A stretch of DNA of 64,000 bases, taken from the NCBI RefSeq assembly GCF_003470205.1, contig NZ_QWKP01000220.1, positions 1 through 64,000 of the forward strand, written 5' to 3'. This stretch comes from Cellulomonas rhizosphaerae. GTDB lineage: Bacteria > Actinomycetota > Actinomycetes > Actinomycetales > Cellulomonadaceae. Under the pieces are notes generated by a model. The model was not told the DNA's origin. It did no database searches and was given only the letters and a program-made list of their open reading frames with translations. Positions 5,665 through 19,887 of this stretch are shown piece after piece. A program made the translations under genes and the position numbers. Position 1 is the first letter of the stretch. Each line of letters begins with the position of its first letter.

Positions 5665-8600
5665 CTATGCGGTTCGTTCGTCCAGGTCGTTGCCGGTCAG
5701 TCGGAAGAACTCTGATCGGATCGTCGCCATGCTGACTTGATCAGCGCCCAATGCGCGCAGCGTGGTGTGTGCACCCGACGCCCAGTGCGCGACGCCCGGC
5801 GCCAGGGGGTGTGCCGTCGCGGAAAGGAGCCCTGCGAGCAGACGCGCCCACTCGCCGGGTGCAACCTCGAGCGCTTCTGGCGGCACATCGACCTGCCGCC
5901 ATGAGCCAGTCTCCGAACTGATGCCGACCGAGGTCCGTAGCAGGAGGTCCACTCCCTCACGGACGTTCACGGCCGCGTCGAGACCTCCGAGCCACCCGAG
6001 CATTGCGGTGATCTCCGGAGCCTCCAGCAGTCGAGGTGCACCGCCCACGCGAAGTGCGATGTACGGCTTCATCCACCTTCCCCACAGTGAGGCACGTGCG
6101 GCGGGCTCAAGATCCTCGACAAGCTCCCCCACCTCCGCTGACCACTGAACGACGGCATCAGTAGTCGCATTGGCCACCAGCGCGGTCAGCCACGACAGCC
6201 GCTCGGCGTCGTCCATGGTGCTGTGGACTGCCACGACAGCGGCAAGTCGCATCAGGTCGCCGGTGATCTCCGAACCTTGGCCGACCCGCCGGGCGCAGAC
6301 AGGTATCCACTCGCGGAGCCCGGACTGCAGGAGGTCCTCGCTGAATTGACCGTGGAGGAGAATCCCCCAGGCTTCTTCGACCTGGGGCCACGGAAGTTTG
6401 TTCGGATCGATGGTGGCCAGTAGGTGCATTGCTGTCCACGCCGGATCAGCGCGGTAGAGGAAGTTCAACTGACGCAGCAGTGACGCCCTGGCGAGCCGCG
6501 AATGCGTTGCCAGCAGATCTTCAAGTGCTGACACGACCTCCGAGGACAGGCCGCCCCCCGGGTAGGTGCCGGTTCGCGCGTCGTCCACGGCCACATCGAT
6601 CCAAAAATCGACCAGCACCCCTGGGGCACTGTTGATTGCCGCTGAATGGAGGTCCGTGGCGCCACTGAGGCTCTCAGTGTCATCAACCATCGTGGCCGCG
6701 CGACGCGCCAACCCCCGACCGTCACCTCGGTGAACCCAGCGCCGGCTCAGCGCAGTGTCACTCGTCCACGGGTGCAGGAGTCGCGCAACGGGACCGGCGA
6801 GCCCTCCAAGGTCCCCGGCGCTCAGTACTGCTGCCACGCGATCCATCTGCGACTCATCCAGCGGTGCAGTGGACCAGCCGAGGATCACACACTCCCGGAC
6901 TTCCACACGGGCCAAGGCATCCCAGATGACGAAGCCGTCATCCGGCCACTCTCCGACCACGCGCTCGAGCATGCTGCCAGCTCCCCACCATCCCCGTTCC
7001 ACGTCATCAGGCAGCTCGGACCCGAGTCGCGCGATGGCAGATCCCGCATCGTCCGCGAGCATCTGGTGGAACTCGAGCGGCGCCCATGGCCAGTCGTCCT
7101 CGATGCTGCGCGACCCGGTCTCCGTATAGCGAGACAGGTCGGGATGTGGGCTTGGCTCCCACTCCGGAAATCTCCGCTCGATCTCGGCCAGCGCTGGGGG
7201 CGCCGCGGCGCCGGGCCGGTACTTCACGAGCCAATGCAGCAGCTCGAACGCCGCGCGGTCGCGGTACCTCACAGCGACCGTGGGGTCGTCGTGACGAACG
7301 GCGCTCAATTCTGGGCCCACCGACGCCGCCTGTACGAGATCGTCGAACTCATCGCCGGGCAAGTCCGGCACGGCCGAGGCAAGCAACCCGTAGACCTCGT
7401 GGCGGACCTCATTGTCGAACAGCATCCGGCGCGCGAGCACGAACGAGACCTTGACCCCAGCGGGTGGTTCTGCTGCCTTCCACAGGTTGTCGATCGCGAG
7501 CCGTCGGAGTAGCGGCGCTGGACTGTCGAACCAGAGTCCCCGGACGGCGTCAGCCAGTTCAGGGGCTACAGCCCCGATCTGCGCGAGCCCATCGCGTCCG
7601 AGATCGACCAGGACCTGCTCGGGCTCGCTGGGGGCGCGCCGGTCTTGTTCATGTGGTGCGATCGACGACCGGGCGTAGGACCAGGGGTCGAACGAACGGC
7701 CGGCCGAGGTGACGCGACGATGGGCCTGCTCGAGGTAGGCGGTAAGCCAGCTCAACAGTTCGCGGCTCTTGTCGGGCTGCGACGGAACGGCGAGCAGCCT
7801 ACGCATCCCAGCTTCGAGTCCACCGCCCGAGGCGAGACGCGGCGATCGAAGCGCCCAGAAGCCCGAGCCGGTGCTCGGCCGCCACTGGTTGGCCAGGTGG
7901 TTCAACAGGAGCATCGTGTCCGGCCAGGTGAGGTTGACTTCCGACCCCCACAGCCATTGGAGTTCGGCCCCATGCTGGCCGACGGCGTAGTCCAAGACCC
8001 ACCGAAGCCAATGGGAGCGCTGCTCGTCGTCGACTTGCTCAAACGTGATCCGCCGGAGGACCGCAGACACGAACATCGGGTGCACCGGACCGGGTGTGTC
8101 TCGTAGCGCCTGGTCGAGGTGCCGGAAGGCCTCGGTCCCGACACCGGCCTGCGCAGCCCAGTTCGCCACATGGCTCAGGACACGGTCGTCCACCGCCGCG
8201 TCTTCAGTACCAGCAAGCTTCTTGAACGGCAGTTGCCGAGCCATCCAGTCGATCCACTCATCGCCCTTGGCGACGGCGCAAACCTCCTTGGCCAGGCGTT
8301 CGTCGTCGAGCGAGACCACAAGAAAGTCGTCTTCGTCCGGGTCGGCGGGCGGCGTCTCGCCGGCGAGGCGCCGGATTCGCTGCGCGCGATCAAACGGTGT
8401 ATCCCGGGCCCAGGCGCCCCAGCGCTCGAGGGTGGCGGTGACCATCGAGTGTTGGTCACGCGTGTAGAGGATCGGCCGGATCCCGAGGCCAGCCCACTTC
8501 TTGGCCTTGTCGCGGTCGATGAGGATGTACCGCTCTCGGGTCTTCGATGACAAGCCCTTCGCGAGGTACTCCATCATGCGGTCGTCGTGGCTGTAGCCCA

Positions 8601-9180
8601 CGAACAGAACGACGAACTCGGCGAACACTTCCCGCAGGAAGGCGGGGGCCCAGCCCTGCGTCACGTATGCGCGGCCGAAGTCGGCGTCTGTGACGATCAA
8701 TCGTCGCGGGGGTTGTCCGAGTCGACCATGTAGGTGCACGAGTCCCTCGAAGTCGCCTCCGGCGGGCATTGCCGGGGCTTCGAAGACCGAGTGCTTGGCA
8801 CCGATCGCCCTCAGCGAGCTATGCAGGTGGTTGTCGTAGTTCGTGGTCACGATTCGGGGCGTGCCGGGTGCGGCCGCCAGCGTCGCTATGGCGTCGTGCA
8901 GGGCATTGCGGTGCCGGCCCCGTATCTCCTGGGCAACGAGGCCATGCACGTCGACCCCGGGTCGAACAAGCCGTCCCAGACACACGTCGGGCGCCTTGAG
9001 CGCCCGCTTGGTCGGCTCTTCCGCTCCGGTGCGTTGAGCGACTCGCTTCACCAGCTCCGTGAAGTTGGGCAGGTTCGTCGGGCTGGCCATCGAAGCGCCG
9101 GCGCCCACGAAAAAAACCACGTCCCCGTCGGCGTGCGCGAACACGAGTTCTGGTGGGATGTCCACTCCTGCAAACCGCAT
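5665..9180 (-). CDS. SIR2-domain protein with DUF4020-type C-terminus, probable anti-phage NADase effector
   Basis: A 1171-aa cytosolic protein. Residues 1 to about 260 form a SIR2-like Rossmann domain: FFVGAGAS (26-30 for GAGAS), VTTNYD (TTNYD 112-116, carrying the catalytic-type Asn), HLHG (149-152, catalytic-type His) and LFVGYSHDDR (about 193-201). All motifs needed for NAD+ hydrolysis look intact. The remaining 900 residues are helical, and the segment with LLRQLNFLYRADPAW resembles DUF4020. SIR2 domains of this type are established NAD+-depleting effectors in several phage-defence systems; that role here is inferred. It is the last gene of a same-strand set of three, 279 nt after the DUF4917 gene. 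The start at 9180 lies 25 codons before the glycine loop, as expected. Confidence 0.8.
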   Translation of the reverse strand: MRFAGVDIPPELVFAHADGDVVFFVGAGASMASPTNLPNFTELVKRVAQRTGAEEPTKRALKAPDVCLGRLVRPGVDVHGLVAQEIRGRHRNALHDAIATLAAAPGTPRIVTTNYDNHLHSSLRAIGAKHSVFEAPAMPAGGDFEGLVHLHGRLGQPPRRLIVTDADFGRAYVTQGWAPAFLREVFAEFVVLFVGYSHDDRMMEYLAKGLSSKTRERYILIDRDKAKKWAGLGIRPILYTRDQHSMVTATLERWGAWARDTPFDRAQRIRRLAGETPPADPDEDDFLVVSLDDERLAKEVCAVAKGDEWIDWMARQLPFKKLAGTEDAAVDDRVLSHVANWAAQAGVGTEAFRHLDQALRDTPGPVHPMFVSAVLRRITFEQVDDEQRSHWLRWVLDYAVGQHGAELQWLWGSEVNLTWPDTMLLLNHLANQWRPSTGSGFWALRSPRLASGGGLEAGMRRLLAVPSQPDKSRELLSWLTAYLEQAHRRVTSAGRSFDPWSYARSSIAPHEQDRRAPSEPEQVLVDLGRDGLAQIGAVAPELADAVRGLWFDSPAPLLRRLAIDNLWKAAEPPAGVKVSFVLARRMLFDNEVRHEVYGLLASAVPDLPGDEFDDLVQAASVGPELSAVRHDDPTVAVRYRDRAAFELLHWLVKYRPGAAAPPALAEIERRFPEWEPSPHPDLSRYTETGSRSIEDDWPWAPLEFHQMLADDAGSAIARLGSELPDDVERGWWGAGSMLERVVGEWPDDGFVIWDALARVEVRECVILGWSTAPLDESQMDRVAAVLSAGDLGGLAGPVARLLHPWTSDTALSRRWVHRGDGRGLARRAATMVDDTESLSGATDLHSAAINSAPGVLVDFWIDVAVDDARTGTYPGGGLSSEVVSALEDLLATHSRLARASLLRQLNFLYRADPAWTAMHLLATIDPNKLPWPQVEEAWGILLHGQFSEDLLQSGLREWIPVCARRVGQGSEITGDLMRLAAVVAVHSTMDDAERLSWLTALVANATTDAVVQWSAEVGELVEDLEPAARASLWGRWMKPYIALRVGGAPRLLEAPEITAMLGWLGGLDAAVNVREGVDLLLRTSVGISSETGSWRQVDVPPEALEVAPGEWARLLAGLLSATAHPLAPGVAHWASGAHTTLRALGADQVSMATIRSEFFRLTGNDLDERTA

Positions 9181-9459: not shown

Positions 9460-10458
9460 TCATGGTGCCGGGATGAGCAAGGACGGAGCTCCGATTGGGT
9501 ACGAGGTCGAGTCGAAGAACTCGACCTTGTGACGGCCGAGCGCCCCGAGGATCCGCGCCTTCTCGGCGATGACAGCAGCGTCGTCCGTTGTCGGGTACAT
9601 CGAGACCGCGATCCGCCGCGTCGGTCCGTGCATGAGTGCCGCTACGACGTGACGATCCTGATCCGCGAGTGACTGTCCGAAAACGACCGTTGGCTTGTCG
9701 TCCATCCGCAACTGCTCCAGACAGAAAGACAGGTAGGTCGACTGCCTGATGGTGCGCGCCTTCGCGGCGGCGGTGCCTTCGCTGACGAAGAGTGGGCGTC
9801 GATCGATGCCCGGTCCGTACTTGCCCTGGATGTCGAGTAGTCGGCCTCTGCCGCTGGTCCACTTCCCGTTCTCGCCCGTCTGGTTGTCCTGCCAGAGGTG
9901 GATGCCGCCGTGCAGGTAGTGCATCCGGGTTGACCGACTGCTCCGCACGGCGGTGTCGGCGGGGTCGAACTGGTGGCCCGCCGCCCAGAAGTAGTCGACG
10001 ATGTCGACCACCTTCGTGGTCTGCATCTGGCTCCAGTACAGGCTCAGGTCGTAGTTGGTGGTGAAGACGGCGTCGTATCCGTTGATGGCCACGGCCAGCG
10101 CGTCGTGTGCGTCCTGGGGGAATCGCTCCCAGGGCACGTGGACCAGGCCGACGGCCGTGAAAAGGGCGTCACGGACGTCTTCGTAGGTCTGGTCCACCTT
10201 GGCGGTGGACTCGTTTAGTGCGCTGAGCGCGATGTTCGCATGGTGCAGGCACTCGAGACACTGCTCGAAGTTTGTTGTGCCGAGTTCATTGAAGATGGAT
10301 TGCGCGGCCGTCGTCAGTGCCGCGCTCTGGTAGAGGCTGGAATAGCTGAAGCCGGCCCAGAGGTTGATGCTCAGGCCGTTGCCTACCAGCAATGTCGGCC
10401 AGTCGTCTTCCTGGAGGCTTAGCCAACTCTGGAGGTCAGAGTCGATGGCGGTGGTCAT
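9460..10458 (-). CDS. DUF4917-type protein with SIR2-like NAD-binding motifs
   Basis: A 332-aa protein that I assign to DUF4917. It repeats the SIR2 motif order of its larger neighbour: LLVGNGLSINLW (GNGLS at 26-30, in place of GAGAS), VFTTNYD (133-137), MHYLHGGIHLW (181-184 for YLHG) and VVFGQSLADQD near residue 260 in place of the GYSHDD motif. The candidate catalytic Asn and His are both kept, so this could be a second, compact NAD-processing or NAD-sensing enzyme; that is inference from motifs. The start is supported by a GAAGGGG ribosome site 8 nt upstream. It follows the nuclease-like gene by 208 nt on the same strand and precedes the SIR2-DUF4020 gene. Confidence 0.72.
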   Translation of the reverse strand: MTTAIDSDLQSWLSLQEDDWPTLLVGNGLSINLWAGFSYSSLYQSAALTTAAQSIFNELGTTNFEQCLECLHHANIALSALNESTAKVDQTYEDVRDALFTAVGLVHVPWERFPQDAHDALAVAINGYDAVFTTNYDLSLYWSQMQTTKVVDIVDYFWAAGHQFDPADTAVRSSRSTRMHYLHGGIHLWQDNQTGENGKWTSGRGRLLDIQGKYGPGIDRRPLFVSEGTAAAKARTIRQSTYLSFCLEQLRMDDKPTVVFGQSLADQDRHVVAALMHGPTRRIAVSMYPTTDDAAVIAEKARILGALGRHKVEFFDSTSYPIGAPSLLIPAP

Positions 10459-10666: not shown

Positions 10667-13183
10667 TCATCGTTTGCGGCGCTTCTTCCGAGTGCTGCGC
10701 GCGGCGCCGGGCTTTGCGTGGGGTGGAATGACGCGAGGTGTGCGGTCCGGTGGAACGAGTCGCATCGCTCGCGCGAGGCGATCCAACTCCTGATCAGGGG
10801 CGGGCGGGTCCGCCATCCAGATGGTGAGGCGCGGCGCTCCGTCTGTGCCGAGGAAGAAGGCCATGGCACGGTCGGCGTGTTCGAGATGCTTCTTTGCACG
10901 CAGGTACTCGCGCAAATGATCGATGTTCCGCGCCGAGTCCGGTCCAGTCGCGAAGATGAAGAGCCATCGGCCGGAATCGTCGGTTCCGCCGCTCGCGTAC
11001 GTGTGAAACTTCCCGTCCCTCGCCGACAATCGCAATGTCCCCGCGACGTGGCGAGCGATGTCGGCTTGGGCGCGCGCCGAGTAGCCGTCCAGGTCTGCAC
11101 TCGAGCGCCACCATCCCGGCGCTTCGTGCGCGGTCATCTGGTCGATCAGGCCTTGCACGAACTCGTTGATGTCGCGGATCGGTCGGTCAGCGGGTGCGGA
11201 AGAACTGCCTTCACGGTGGTAGTACCAAGCGTCGAGTGGGTCGGTGAAGGTGCCAACGATGGTGCGCCCTTGCTCGGCGTACGTGCGCCGGTCCTTTGCA
11301 GTCGGCGGGCGACCGCCAGGGTGGTCGCCGTGCAGGCGATCAGGGTCCGCCTCGAAATAAAAGCCACCTCCGATGAACCACATCACGATGTCGAGTTCGT
11401 CGACAGCAGTCACCCACAACGCAGCATCGCGATTGGTACGCCGCCGAAGATAGGTCAGGAAGTGCTCGGGGCGATCGAGAAGTTCGGCGATCACGAGGAC
11501 GTCATGAACGCTGACGATCCAAGGCAAAGTCGTCTGGCTCAGCACTCCGCTTCTCACCAGAGCTTCGACGTCGAGGCCCGCTGGACCAAGGTCGTCCAGA
11601 GTGACGACGATGCTGTACACCTCGCGGATTTCAGGAAGGTCGAGCCAGCTCCCGTCTTCCAACCACAGACCCTGATGGCTCGTGATGAGGCGCCGGAGCC
11701 GGTTTGCTTGATCTGCAGCCGACTGCACGGTCTGCTTTAGGTCTCTGCGCAGATGTGTCGAGCGCCCTTGGCGCGAGGGGGTTCTGATTGATCCCGCCTT
11801 CACCTCGATGCACAGGGCGACTCCGTCGAGCACCAGGAGCGCGTCGGCTTCGGCACTGTCAGCCTCACCGGCGCTGTTCGCGGCCGCGGACAGGTCGACT
11901 GTCTGACCGGGCCGGGACGCGGCCCGATAGCGCAGCTGGCGGCGCATGTCACCACGGCCATGGACCATCTGCTGGAACGCGTCGGCAACGAGCGCTTCGG
12001 CTGCGCTGTCGCGACCCTTGCCGTACTTAACCCACGCGACGTCCTTCGCAATGCGCGACTCGGCGGCTCTGCGAATTTCATCGAGGGCAATGGCGCCAGG
12101 TAGGACCAGGTAACCGCGCCCTGGCGCCTTGAGGATCCCCTTACCAGTCATTGGATTGCGGCCAGCGACGAACTCTTCGATGAGCTCGAGTGACGTCCTG
12201 CCATCCGGAGCGATGCTGAACAGGTCGAGGACGCCGGTGACCGCCTCGGCACTCAGGCCTGTGTGGGCCACCACCCGATCGACGGTGATCAGGTGCAGGA
12301 CCGAAGGATTCTGAAAGACGGCCCGGACCGCATCGAGTGTGTCCGCATCGGGTATGGCGTCTGCCGTTGCAGCTTCGGCGATGCGGTCGAACGTAGCCTC
12401 CTGCGCCGCGCCAAGGACGTCGATCAAGGCCCCCCTCACCGCCAACACGTCTGAGTAGTCGAACCCAAGCACCTGACGCCAGGCGACATCCGCGTTGGGG
12501 CGGCGGAGGGTCGCCTCGTTGATTCGCTCGGCGATCGAGACGTACTGGCGACCGCGAACGGTCGTCTCGTAGCTGCGCAACTGCCACGCCACGTCGCTTG
12601 CCCCGGCGTCGAGGGCCGTCGTGGTTACGGCGTCGGCTCGAGTTGCCATCGACGCAAACACGGCCAAATGGACCACCCGGGCGGCAGCCTGTAGGAGAAC
12701 CGGGATGATCTGGGCAGTAGCTTTCGAGGGAGCTGACCGTTCCGGTAGTCCGTTGCCGAGCAGGGCGAGTGCAACGACCTCCCCGCACGCCCAAGAGTCG
12801 ATGACTTGCGAGCTGCTTTCGACCCAAAGCGCCAAGTCGGGCGGCACGAGGTACTGCCTGACCATCGACATGACGTCCAGCGCGTCATGACCCGACAGGA
12901 GTTCACACAGTTCGGACGTGGCCCGATGGACTTCCGCGGCAAGGTCCTTCGCTTCGAACGGATCCTCCTCCGCTGATTCGTCGGCCTGCGCGACGGCGAT
13001 CAGGGGTAGAACCGCTGACTGAAGCGCTGCCGCGCTGCCGGCCACCATGTGAAGTCGCCGACCCTCCGGGGAGATATAGGTCGCTTCGTGGCAGGTCGTA
13101 GATAGGTCAGGGGCGGCGGCCTCTTGTGCCCAGGAGGGCGAGAGCGGGCGAGGCCGGTCGGCAGAGTCGGATTCGGTTCTCAC
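10667..13183 (-). CDS. Large protein with PD-(D/E)XK nuclease-like core
   Basis: An 838-aa soluble protein without a family I can name. Residues 390-500 look like a PD-(D/E)XK/NERD-type nuclease: a helix with Glu397 (DSAAEALVADAF), Asp447 in SAEADALLVLDG, and Glu460-Val-Lys462 in ALCIEVKAGSI, followed by a helix KQTVQSAADQANRL. The first 380 residues are helical; the C-terminus ends in a basic tail (RSTRKKRRKR) that could bind nucleic acid. It uses a GTG start at 13183 with no clear ribosome site; an ATG at internal Met47 is an alternative. It is first of three same-strand genes with two SIR2-like proteins, which suggests a defence complex in which the nuclease or the SIR2 enzymes act on infection. 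The function is inferred. Confidence 0.65.
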   Translation of the reverse strand: MRTESDSADRPRPLSPSWAQEAAAPDLSTTCHEATYISPEGRRLHMVAGSAAALQSAVLPLIAVAQADESAEEDPFEAKDLAAEVHRATSELCELLSGHDALDVMSMVRQYLVPPDLALWVESSSQVIDSWACGEVVALALLGNGLPERSAPSKATAQIIPVLLQAAARVVHLAVFASMATRADAVTTTALDAGASDVAWQLRSYETTVRGRQYVSIAERINEATLRRPNADVAWRQVLGFDYSDVLAVRGALIDVLGAAQEATFDRIAEAATADAIPDADTLDAVRAVFQNPSVLHLITVDRVVAHTGLSAEAVTGVLDLFSIAPDGRTSLELIEEFVAGRNPMTGKGILKAPGRGYLVLPGAIALDEIRRAAESRIAKDVAWVKYGKGRDSAAEALVADAFQQMVHGRGDMRRQLRYRAASRPGQTVDLSAAANSAGEADSAEADALLVLDGVALCIEVKAGSIRTPSRQGRSTHLRRDLKQTVQSAADQANRLRRLITSHQGLWLEDGSWLDLPEIREVYSIVVTLDDLGPAGLDVEALVRSGVLSQTTLPWIVSVHDVLVIAELLDRPEHFLTYLRRRTNRDAALWVTAVDELDIVMWFIGGGFYFEADPDRLHGDHPGGRPPTAKDRRTYAEQGRTIVGTFTDPLDAWYYHREGSSSAPADRPIRDINEFVQGLIDQMTAHEAPGWWRSSADLDGYSARAQADIARHVAGTLRLSARDGKFHTYASGGTDDSGRWLFIFATGPDSARNIDHLREYLRAKKHLEHADRAMAFFLGTDGAPRLTIWMADPPAPDQELDRLARAMRLVPPDRTPRVIPPHAKPGAARSTRKKRRKR

Positions 13184-15500: not shown

Positions 15501-15532
15501 CAGACGTGGACCTCGAGCTCGGCGGCAGTCAT
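15500..15532 (-). CDS. 10-codon mini-ORF bridging two overlapping genes
   Basis: Its ATG overlaps the stop of the recombinase-like gene (ATGA) and its stop overlaps the ATG of the transposase-like gene (TGATG). The product would be MTAAELEVHV. It may serve only to pass ribosomes from one gene to the next, or be the relic of an older fused start. Confidence 0.35.
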   Translation of the reverse strand: MTAAELEVHV

Positions 15533-16443
15533 GCCGGGCTCCAGTTAAGCGCGATGTCCTCGGCAACCGTGTCCAGGCTCCGAGCCCCCATTCGCACTGC
15601 CACCTGCTCGATCGGCATGCCGGAATCGAAAAGGCGCCGGCCGGTCCAGTTCCGGACCGACGCGGGTCGGACATCAGGCTCCCCGGCCAGGTCGACAGCC
15701 TTGAGGATCTCGGCGATCGCGTTACAGACAGCCGCCTGCGCGACGTGTTGCCCTGGCACCCCTGACCCTCGGTAGGTCAGCAGGGTCGAGGTCGGGGCAC
15801 CTGCGCTGACCAGGACTTGGATCTGACGGCTCACTACGTGTGAGCCCCACTCTGTGAGCTCGCCGCGTCGCTCTCGAGAGCGCTTTGTGCCGGCCAGGCG
15901 AACCCAGCGCGGGTTCTCACAGTCATCGACGTCGTTGATGCGCACCTGCGCGATCTCGCTCGTGATGGCCGTGGCTTCCGCCAGGGCCCAGCAAACGGCC
16001 CGTTGCAGTGAGATCGCTCCTGCGGAGCCGAGGCGCGACGCGAACCGACACAGCGTGACTTCGTCGTCGGTGAGCGGACGCGCCGCGGTCGACGAGCGGG
16101 CCTGCAACTGCAGATCCAACGTCGGATCCCAGTCGATCAACTCGAGCTGCCGCAGGGTGCGGAAGTACATGCGCAACGCGGCCCGGCGGGCGTGTTGTGT
16201 CGTGAGCTCCGGCCGGCGCCCCTCGGACGTCGGAGCGACGAGGAATCCGCGGCACAACTCGGGCGTGAGGTCACCGAGGCTGCGTGCGCCCTGTGTCGCC
16301 GCCCGACGTGTGAACCGCTCGACAGTTTCACCGTTTCGTAGCCGCGTCTGCTCCGAGAACGCGTCGTCGATCAGCCACGCCGCCCGCACCTGCTCCAGTG
16401 CGTCATCGAGGCTGCGGTCGACATCACTCGTCTGGTCGCCCAT
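15529..16443 (-). CDS. Tyrosine-recombinase-like protein with degenerate active site
   Basis: A 304-aa protein laid out like a phage-type integrase: an N-terminal helical core-binding region (TRLRNGETVERFTRRAATQG; RRAALRMYFRTLRQLELIDWDP) and a C-terminal domain with ALAEATAITSEIAQVRINDVD, PASVRNWTGRRLFDSG and RMGARSLDTVAEDIALNW. These align with the R-box, HxxR box and LGH...Y box of XerC-type enzymes. The first catalytic Arg, the His of HxxR, the His of LGH and the nucleophile Tyr are not where expected; the second-box Arg is kept. It is therefore either a decayed recombinase or a DNA-binding partner of the DDE-like protein encoded next. The ATG at 16443 is chosen by composition. Confidence 0.55.
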   Translation of the reverse strand: MGDQTSDVDRSLDDALEQVRAAWLIDDAFSEQTRLRNGETVERFTRRAATQGARSLGDLTPELCRGFLVAPTSEGRRPELTTQHARRAALRMYFRTLRQLELIDWDPTLDLQLQARSSTAARPLTDDEVTLCRFASRLGSAGAISLQRAVCWALAEATAITSEIAQVRINDVDDCENPRWVRLAGTKRSRERRGELTEWGSHVVSRQIQVLVSAGAPTSTLLTYRGSGVPGQHVAQAAVCNAIAEILKAVDLAGEPDVRPASVRNWTGRRLFDSGMPIEQVAVRMGARSLDTVAEDIALNWSPA

Positions 16444-16597
16444 CCGATCACCGTCCGCTTCGACCGTAGGACAGGCGTCTCCCAAAGGGGAGCCACTGAA
16501 CGCGCGAGGGCCGTCGCGGGAATGCGCGAAGAGGCGATTGCGTCCGCCCGCCTGGCCCGAACCGTGCCGGTCACCAAGCACCGTCCAGGAGGACATC

Positions 16598-17051
16598 GTG
16601 ACCATCACAAACATTGGCCCCGCCCGCGCAGCCATCCCCGTCGACCTGCGAAGGGGAGCGTTCGAGACACCCGCGTACATCGAGGCGGCCATTGCCTGCT
16701 TTGCGTTCCCGGGTCTCCACGATCTCACCGCCGCCTTCCCGCCGCGGGTGGGCAAGGGCAAGCGCCCGGACTACCCGCCGATCTGCATGCTCGCGGTCCT
16801 GATGGCGTCCACGCTCTACGGCGGCGACGCCACGGTCATTCGTGAGCTCAGCTGCTACGGCGCCTTTCTGTGGAAGGTGTGCGCCCAACACCTCGAGGAG
16901 CAGATGGACGGTTTCCTGCTCCCCGACGCTCGAGCTCGTCGGCACGGTGGCCACCCACTTCGCCGGCAGTGACGTCCTCGTCGACCTGCAGGACCCGCGC
17001 CGTCGGATCCAGGGCGTGTGGCTAGCCGCCCAGGACGCCCGGCGACGGTAG
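16598..17051 (+). pseudogene. Frameshifted gene resembling a transposase N-terminal domain
   Basis: A strong ribosome site (AGGAGGA at 16587-16593) precedes a GTG at 16598. The frame encodes RRGAFETPAYIEAAIACF, then KRPDYPPICMLAVLMAST and RELSCYGAFLWKVCAQ, reading well to FLLPDA at about 16930. It then degenerates and stops at 16972. The alternative frame continues sensibly (LELVGTVATHFAGSDVLVD to WLAAQDARRR) to 17051, so one missing base restores a protein of about 150 residues. The YPPICML helix resembles PPYVMLQ in the transposase-like gene facing the other way. It could be an independent DNA-binding domain of the same element. The function is unproven. Confidence 0.45.
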
Positions 17052-18788: not shown

Positions 18789-19613
18789 TCATACTGCTGC
18801 CGACGCGGGCCGGACGGCGCCGATGGTCGCCGCGGCCGCGACCGCGTTCCGTAGGTGGTCGGTAGGCATCCGCACGTAGATGAGCGTCGTCTCCGTCGAG
18901 GCGTGCCCTAGGAGGTTGGACACCGCGAGCAGGTCGCGCGTCGCCGCGTAGGCGACAGTCCCGAACCGGTGTCGCAGGGTGTGGGCGGTCCACGGGGCCG
19001 GCAGCAGCGCCGAGAGCAGCTTCGAGACGTGGTTCGGCGTCAGGTGCCCACCGCGCTGAACGTTCGGGAAGAGCCACCCGTCGCACGCGACCAGCGCGTC
19101 ACGCAGATTCCCGTCGATGATGGGGACAAGACGCTCGTGGCCACCCTTGCCGTGGACCAAGAGCATGTCGCCGTCGTAGTCATTGCGGTGCACCCGCGAA
19201 ATCTCGCCGGCCCTGAGGCCTGCCAGCGCGCCGAGCTCGACCATGAGGCGCTCGCGGCCGTCGGCCCGTTGCAGCGCGTCGGCGACGATGCCCTCCGGCG
19301 TTGGCCTGGGACGCCCGCGGGGCACTCGAACTGTTGGGAGGCCGGCAGCCGGGTCGTGGGTGATGTGGCCGCTGCGCAGCGCCCAGCGGTAGAACCCGCA
19401 GACGACAGTCCGCAGTGACTTCTTCGCGGACGGACCAACGGCGAGCTCGCCGAGTAGCCGCTCAAGGTCGGCCGTGGTGACGGCCCAAGGCGAACCCCGG
19501 AGCGCTGCGGCCGTGTGGTTCAGGTAGTGGCGGTAGAGCACGATGGTCTGTGGTCTACGACCCGCTCCGCGCAGCGCCTGCACCCATGCCGCGATGGCCC
19601 CCTGCCAGTTCAT
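18789..19613 (-). CDS. Tyrosine recombinase / integrase, apparently intact
   Basis: A 274-aa XerC/D-like site-specific recombinase. The N-terminal SAM-like DNA-binding domain (IVLYRHYLNHTAAALRG) is followed by a catalytic domain with all residues expected: Arg in LAGLRAGEIS, Lys in HGKGGHERLVP, HTLRHRFG for HxxR, LLGHAS for the second His, and the nucleophile Tyr in LIYVRM. The ATG at 19613 has GAGGGG upstream at correct spacing; a longer in-frame start exists but reads poorly. The gene ends 4 nt past the tRNA-Lys, the classical placement of integrases that use a tRNA 3' end as target. The element it belongs to appears reduced to this gene. Confidence 0.88.
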   Translation of the reverse strand: MNWQGAIAAWVQALRGAGRRPQTIVLYRHYLNHTAAALRGSPWAVTTADLERLLGELAVGPSAKKSLRTVVCGFYRWALRSGHITHDPAAGLPTVRVPRGRPRPTPEGIVADALQRADGRERLMVELGALAGLRAGEISRVHRNDYDGDMLLVHGKGGHERLVPIIDGNLRDALVACDGWLFPNVQRGGHLTPNHVSKLLSALLPAPWTAHTLRHRFGTVAYAATRDLLAVSNLLGHASTETTLIYVRMPTDHLRNAVAAAATIGAVRPASAAV

Positions 19614-19887
19614 GCCGTTCCCCTCACTTTGATGTGAAGTGGTGGCATCGGTAGCCGCGACGACGAGTCGCAGGGATGTTCGGCCCGGTTCGCTCGCGCG
19701 CCTCACGGTGGGGAGGTTGACGACGCTCGTTCGTGTGGCATTAGCCCTGACCTGCTCGTTTGCCCTACCGAACCGCGCGCGGCGTGGTAACGGCGCGCTG
19801 CATCAGGATGCCCGCTCGTCGTCAGCGAACGGTGCAGCAGCCCACGGCCCGACGATCACCCGCGCGTCGCTGACCTGGGGTGACGTG
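19614..19887. other. Non-coding interval upstream of the integrase
   Basis: No supported gene. A short dyad CACTT/AAGTG (about 19627-19643) lies just upstream of the integrase start and could be a recombinase or excisionase site. The remainder shows nothing recognisable. Confidence 0.3.

Follow-up and report, generated by a model that had tools for sequence, protein, structure and literature searches.

What kind of protein is encoded by the DUF4917 gene of Cellulomonas rhizosphaerae, and does it belong to one of the known SIR2-based defence systems or stand on its own? The window analysed here, i.e. the whole stretch of DNA considered, comprises the first 64,000 nucleotides of contig NZ_QWKP01000220.1, in which the gene forms one open reading frame of 332 codons filling the whole of its interval and lies in the middle of a three-gene block (Table 1). 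The GC content of the block is 0.63-0.66 versus 0.712 for the whole window, and two tyrosine recombinase genes are located 2.3 and 5.6 kb beyond it; due to the lower GC content and the nearby recombinases, the block looks acquired. A promoter and terminator scan of the DUF4917 gene revealed nothing above chance.

Table 1 Features of the window discussed in the text. Residue numbers refer to the translated proteins.
Feature	Coordinates	Strand	Evidence
Dsr1-like protein, 1171 aa, N-terminal SIR2 domain	5665..9180	-	SIR2_2 2.4e-20; NF041818 9e-62, below cut-off; PADLOC Dsr1 1e-43
DUF4917/PDC-S21 protein, 332 aa, predicted compact SIR2-fold enzyme	9460..10458	-	translation; PF16263 6.8e-41; PDC-S21 3e-93; model and fold matches
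FGQSLADQD, residues 260-268; opposite the VGYS..D stretch of SIR2_2 in the hhalign alignment	9655..9681	-	
YLHG, residues 181-184, with H183 at the place of the catalytic His of DSR2/ThsA	9907..9918	-	
TTNYD, residues 133-137; N135, Y136 and D137 match the catalytic N-Y-D of DSR2/ThsA	10048..10062	-	alignment; PMC11263360
GNGLS, residues 26-30, first Rossmann turn; Asn where SIR2_2 mostly has Ala/Ser	10369..10383	-	
838-aa protein, faint NERD nuclease-like stretch	10667..13183	-	NERD E 0.066, below cut-off
Tyrosine recombinase (Phage_integrase)	15529..16761	-	PF00589 1.1e-7
Second tyrosine recombinase	18789..19706	-	PF00589 1.5e-14

The first flanking gene had been named SIR2-DUF4020 in the first-pass annotation, of which the SIR2 part stands, whereas the DUF4020 label is weak (17.1 bits vs 22.7) and a Dsr1-like assignment fits better. 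Since its NF041818 score, despite the low E-value, is 209 bits with a model cut-off of 1400, i.e. far below it, the protein is regarded as a divergent DSR relative. The 838-aa protein on the other side matches no family above cut-off. A search of 198 genomes gave relatives of it in three other than its own, and no kin of it were found in the viral contigs searched.

The DUF4917 label itself holds (PF16263, Table 1), and both PADLOC PDC-S21 profiles match the window protein as well, with E-values of 3e-93 and 2.2e-56. PDC-S21 is in fact the DUF4917 family itself, although in the PADLOC set used it is a bare label with no description, and no mention of this name was found in the literature searched. 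The sole mention of DUF4917 in that literature is in the gene list of an Arcobacter plasmid, which agrees with the earlier statement that the family has no assigned activity; nonetheless it was already a defence candidate in PADLOC.

The first-pass annotation had read the protein as a compact, divergent SIR2-fold enzyme based on the order of four motifs shared with the Dsr1-like neighbour, in which they are GAGAS (26-30), TTNYD (112-116), HLHG (149-152) and GYSHDD (195-200). The eight motifs are located exactly as it described in both proteins, with FGQSLADQD, to which no position had been assigned, found at residues 260-268. A loose ordered pattern (GxGxS, NYD/NFD, HG and GxS with broad spacing), written after the motifs had been seen, occurred in none of 100,000 shuffles of the window protein. 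BLASTP finds no match between the two proteins (best E 1.2), so their likeness is remote and homology cannot rest on pairwise identity. Against Pfam, the window protein reaches PF13289 (SIR2_2) with an E-value of 6.9e-5 and 23.4 bits, narrowly missing the curated cut-off of 24.5 bits, which is a filing rule and not a structural feature; one DUF4917 protein (G045, locus L160), with its neighbours in frame, passes it. In a set of 72 DUF4917 members, consisting of the window protein and 71 rows (73 candidates minus L048 and L138), SIR2_2 matches 40 at E ≤ 0.1 and PDC-S21 matches all 72. A phmmer search of PDB sequences with the single window protein produced chance matches, the best having an E-value of 1.7.

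The main support for the SIR2 reading that is independent of the motifs is the predicted fold. The AlphaFold2 model of the window protein, built with the 72-sequence alignment, has a pLDDT of 93.9 and a pTM of 0.92, and a Pseudomonas copy folded separately with 57 sequences gave a pLDDT of 91.5 and a pTM of 0.91. Both models show a sirtuin-type Rossmann domain with a small helical module, and the strands and helices of the predicted Rossmann core alternate. Foldseek matched the window model to 77 PDB chains at E ≤ 0.001 (best E 8.4e-10), and the 50 matches listed, namely SIR2-HerA entries, 8yhx (with "trimeric HerA" in its title), ThsA, DSR2, KomC and SIRT6, are all SIR2-type, with modest TM-scores (0.30-0.57 for these rows, normalised by query length) and high rmsd values. 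VIA-align ranks the SIR2 subunit of SIR2-HerA first with a Z of 16.8 (270 aligned residues, 17% identity, rmsd 4.5), followed by 8yhx (16.1), KomC (12.9), ThsA (12.6), Sir2Tm (11.9) and DSR2 (11.8), where rows less than one Z unit apart count as tied, so the last four are tied or nearly so. The top match of the Pseudomonas model is SIR2 of SIR2-HerA as well (Z 16.5). A search of BFVD with the model gave none at E ≤ 0.001, the best being a viral deacylase at 4.5e-3. Judging by these models, it is almost certain that DUF4917 has the SIR2 fold.

Profile comparisons point in the same direction, with certain weak points. The profile of the 72 members matched the SIR2 sequences of two SIR2-HerA systems in the PDB at 2.5e-5 and 0.0042, and also two designed helical proteins at 1.3e-4 and 8.5e-4, which are evidently spurious, so E-values in the 1e-4 range are not safe alone. 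For hhalign, SIR2_2 sequences were drawn from 29 loci (L160, being itself DUF4917, was excluded beforehand), 27 of which were used with no motif requirement, while the motif-required set of 25 rows consisted of 24 of those loci plus the Dsr1-like window protein, which is also among the 24 and is therefore counted twice. The 72-row DUF4917 profile scored a probability of 97.0% against the motif-chosen rows and 95.8% against the 27 rows, the latter value being 96.2% with 90 DUF4917 rows; 30 unrelated control families did not exceed 1.03% when compared to the 72-row profile or 1.46% when compared to the 90-row one. Masking the TTNYD columns alone reduces the value to 19.9%, and masking both TTNYD and LHG reduces it from 96% to 5.6% (three masked controls, at most 1.4%), which means that the sequence evidence leans largely on the motifs. 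The motif-free signal for kinship with SIR2_2 is weak and is counted against the SIR2 reading.

The residues of the putative pocket are nearly unchanged in the sequences compared. In PMC11263360, N133, Y134, D135 and H171 of DSR2 and N112, Y113, D114 and H152 of ThsA are described as forming one catalytic pocket, conserved in SIR2-HerA too, and the Y134A, D135A or H171A substitution as reducing DSR2 activity. In 89 DUF4917 sequences the corresponding N135 is kept in 88, and Y136, D137 and H183 in all 89, so the Asn and His proposed earlier as likely catalytic residues are indeed conserved; both align with the TTNYD and LHG motifs of the SIR2 subunit of SIR2-HerA. All four residues are also kept in 20 of 20 further lower-scoring Pseudomonas copies. 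The 89 sequences were found by HMM and BLAST searches and not by the NYD pattern, although four of them (L171-L174) are re-fetches of copies found by pattern and some rows are identical. Another 80 and 43 loci, the former being the best 80 of at least 576 relatives, were gathered by means of an NYDL pattern and for this reason say nothing about the conservation of N, Y and D. One copy, located on a plasmid of Moraxella osloensis (L004:6019-7005), has TTCYD, with Cys at the position of the catalytic Asn and with Y, D and H kept.

Taken with the predicted fold, the pocket places DUF4917 in the SIR2_2 class of ThsA, DSR1/2 and FAM118. This class (SIRim) is described in PMC12700824 as having no zinc module of the kind found in deacylating sirtuins. 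The window protein contains a single CxxC (residues 67-70), which is absent from all 12 other members of a small alignment. The zinc module of deacylase sirtuins includes two CxxC pairs, so assignment to the canonical deacylase sirtuins was rejected for want of them.

We consider DUF4917, with a probability of roughly 0.6, to be a compact one-domain, one-gene branch of SIR2_2, structurally nearest to the SIR2 protein of SIR2-HerA and acting in the window as an abortive-infection NAD+ hydrolase. The first-pass reading is thus supported by the predicted fold, the profile comparison (95.8-97.0%, largely via the motif columns) and the conserved pocket residues. The GNGxS turn, the NYD loop and the LHG histidine would together enclose NAD+, which the pair N135/H183 would cleave as in DSR2 and ThsA; such cleavage of NAD+ by DUF4917 is, in our estimation, a good deal more probable than its absence. 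In the cell, the protein would stay quiet until an infection cue switched it on, upon which NAD+ would be drained, resulting in abortive infection by a single gene; the cue and the cell-level effect, like the cleavage, are what we infer. Because of the acquired-looking block and the Dsr1-like neighbour, abortive phage defence is favoured for the window's copy, and a defence role of this copy seems slightly the better bet.

None of the known SIR2 systems compared accommodates the protein completely. SIR2-HerA (Nezha, Gao19) gives the best structural match, which extends over almost the entire chain, as well as the best PDB profile match (2.5e-5), and its TTNYD, D-x-F and LHG motifs align with those of DUF4917. 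Unlike in SIR2-HerA, however, no HerA-like or other ATPase family was found in the two flanking genes of the window, and neighbour families elsewhere do not exceed 5 of 54 lineages; its SIR2 proteins have 381 and 415 aa compared to 332 aa in DUF4917. Membership was rejected as no partner was found. DSR1 and DSR2 share the N-Y-D and His pocket with DUF4917, the SIR2 domain of DSR2 matches with a Z of 11.8, and a Dsr1-like gene adjoins DUF4917 in the window, whereas the DSR2 chains are 920-1000 aa long and the Dsr1 model has 1263 positions, with a further region behind SIR2. In DUF4917 one domain fills the 332 aa, and DSR membership was rejected since there is no such C-terminal region. ThsA of Thoeris possesses the same four pocket residues, and its SIR2 domain aligns over 231 residues (Z 12.6, rmsd 4.4), although the match covers residues up to about 270 of 473 and DUF4917 has nothing past the SIR2 domain. 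The C-terminal domain of ThsA is a ligand-sensing one. KomC (HAM-SIR2/KomBC) is, likewise, a compact SIR2 protein, with a Z of 12.9 over 239 residues, but according to the entry titles it was solved within KomBC assemblies, while DUF4917 has no widely recurring partner.

DUF4917 is a single-gene unit with no recurrent partner. The 137 DUF4917 loci make up 54 lineages when grouped at 60% identity, and no neighbour family was found in more than five of these, the neighbours outside the window having been compared by clustering. No relatives of the Dsr1-like or the 838-aa protein were detected in the flanks of the 137 loci (E ≤ 1e-6, ORFs of at least 90 aa; flanks of up to 8 kb, shorter in many and 1.5 kb in two), and a conserved two- or three-gene system comprising either of these genes was rejected, as neither recurs there. 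Defence genes are located nearby in 7 of 13 annotated stretches, taken as a raw count. One and the same DUF4917 protein is encoded between retron Eco8 and ABC-three-component genes both in a Klebsiella plasmid (L015) and in an E. coli chromosome (L175); the other defence neighbours are type I restriction genes (two stretches), Hhe with DUF4297, a HaeIII-family enzyme and AbiEii (one stretch each). The remaining six stretches have no such defence gene close by; two of them contain toxin-antitoxin genes, and in one there is a DUF4297 gene 5 kb away.

The family is found in several bacterial phyla, as well as on plasmids and viral-type contigs, although it is uncommon in most of the samples searched. 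In the phylum of the window, 3 of 396 genomes carry DUF4917, one of them being the window's own genome, and the tree rows nearest to the window's copy are actinobacterial. The plasmid search gave 34 records with a DUF4917 match, 12 of which were retrieved, while phage records gave a single partial match (E 7e-3). A nucleotide-level search for one DUF4917 subtype in E. coli detected it in 36 of 5426 genomes, and in 10 of the 36 chromosomes having the gene it is interrupted by IS1. The order of Pseudomonas includes 14 carriers among 244 genomes, at least three of which are Pseudomonas.

Within the genus Pseudomonas the situation is quite distinct, with 206 of 249 species carrying DUF4917 versus 73 of 249 carrying an ordinary SIR2_2 protein (E ≤ 1e-9). 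A quickly computed LG+G4 tree of a thinned-out set, accompanied by long-branch warnings, groups 43 of the 55 Pseudomonas rows in a single branch (SH-aLRT 100), and the other 12 are scattered among mobile-type copies. The surroundings were compared for 60 copies taken from the score list of the 206 genomes, 40 from its upper-middle part (L206-L245) and 20 from its lower part (L276-L295); the 30 best-scoring places (L176-L205), 11 of which belong to the scattered type by the tree, are outside this sample. Eight recurring neighbour genes, picked from the first 40 copies, served as markers, and 55 of the 60 copies have one or more of them within about 6 kb, so most share one chromosomal neighbourhood. 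The markers include a methyltransferase (41/60) and a divergent iron-type alcohol dehydrogenase (34/60), both named from a reading of their sequences. Six of the 40 regions have no called DUF4917 ORF, which reflects crude ORF choice and not absence of the gene. Distances among the DUF4917 copies correlate with the distances in each of eight neighbour families (Mantel r 0.71-0.96, with 0 of 300 permutations in every case), in tests of 10 to 23 genomes each limited to regions with called ORFs. The median dN/dS is 0.23 with quartiles of 0.15 and 0.50 (868 pairs, 58 genomes), a rough Nei-Gojobori estimate for GC-rich genomes. It follows from the branch, the neighbours, the distances and the dN/dS values that Pseudomonas has a resident, vertically inherited and constrained gene with the full pocket beside scattered mobile copies.

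Residence in 206 of 249 species would be odd for a toxic effector, which is a point against that part of the main reading. On these grounds the protein, at least in Pseudomonas, could be an NAD enzyme with housekeeping or regulatory duties that was drawn from the defence pool, resides in one chromosomal neighbourhood, is inherited vertically and has no phage-defence role there. The wide occurrence compared to SIR2_2, the single branch, the shared marker genes, the Mantel correlations and the low dN/dS all agree with such an enzyme. Nevertheless, the Pseudomonas copies examined retain all four residues of the pocket (71 of 71, of which 11 are of the scattered type, in addition to the 20 of 20 mentioned above), immune genes can also become fixed in a genus, and the explanation does not fit the window's copy, located as it is in a mobile-looking block, so we consider it possible yet rather unlikely. 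The resident copies may represent either fixed immunity or a resident NAD-processing role. A tentative scenario, to which we would give somewhat less than even odds, is that a defence-type sirtuin was domesticated or fixed genus-wide, the ancestor of most Pseudomonas having taken up DUF4917 and its descendants having kept both the neighbourhood and the NADase pocket.

The central residue of the GxG turn is Asn in DUF4917, unlike in most SIR2_2 proteins. N27, G28 and S30 are each kept in 89 of 89 DUF4917 sequences and G26 in 83, whereas of the 25 SIR2_2 rows (the Dsr1-like window protein being counted twice) 22 have GAG or GSG, none has GNG, and three have no motif in the stretch taken. Six residues, namely E65, H107, W142, E227, K233 and H270, are likewise invariant (89/89 each), except that in 1 of the 20 further Pseudomonas copies E65 is replaced by Ala, and we could not place them in the SIR2_2 signature. 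Due to this Asn and the family's own invariant residues, the chemistry or the substrate of DUF4917 may differ, and the invariants may mark a different substrate or a different mode of control. Taken further, this would give a protein with a SIR2 fold that is no NADase, in which the GNG turn and the invariants reshape the pocket, and which binds NAD+, ADP-ribose or another nucleotide for ADP-ribose transfer, nucleotide sensing or some other N-glycosidic hydrolysis. All four residues of the DSR2/ThsA hydrolysis pocket (PMC11263360) are kept, however, and the closest folds come from NADase systems, which makes an activity other than NAD+ hydrolysis improbable.

AbiH proteins have to be considered too, as they possess a GNGF turn, a GxSLG.xD stretch and a SIR2-like motif order. 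In six AbiH sequences, GNGFD (6/6), FNYT (6/6), IHG (5/6) and GxSLxxxD (4/6, with L169 alone having no near form) occur in the same order as the motifs of DUF4917, and 13 of the 72 DUF4917 members are matched by the Pfam AbiH profile at E ≤ 0.1, with a best E-value of 6.5e-5. As early as 2012, AbiH had been assigned by prediction to the enzymes of the Sir2 superfamily (PMC3506569). Despite that, AbiH has NYT where DUF4917 has NYD, the direct profile comparison with the six sequences yields 22% over 31 columns, and the window protein has no match to AbiH (PF14253) at E ≤ 1. It is very unlikely that DUF4917 belongs to AbiH rather than to SIR2_2, and this assignment was rejected for want of direct profile support; DUF4917 and AbiH rather resemble two distinct branches within a single superfamily. 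The profile of the six AbiH sequences (L169, L170, L246-L249) scored 91% against SIR2_2, in line with the 2012 prediction, and no kin of one AbiH protein were found in the viral contigs searched.

That DUF4917 is a catalytically dead relic or a scaffold pseudo-enzyme, as the TTCYD copy and the IS1-interrupted E. coli genes could suggest, is hardly credible given the pocket otherwise kept across distant bacteria and the purifying selection in Pseudomonas.

A predicted fold, a pocket and residues amenable to testing are now given to a domain of unknown function and to an undescribed defence candidate. If the protein is the NAD+ hydrolase that we favour, DUF4917 would be a small SIR2 effector complete in itself, with neither sensor domain nor recognised partner, and one would then ask what keeps it inactive. 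As for the resident copies of Pseudomonas, they raise the question of whether "defence" sirtuins can turn into resident genes; if the genus-wide fixation is true, most Pseudomonas would possess either an innate immune enzyme common to the genus or a resident sirtuin that processes NAD, has no zinc module and carries an Asn in its phosphate turn as well as invariant residues of its own.
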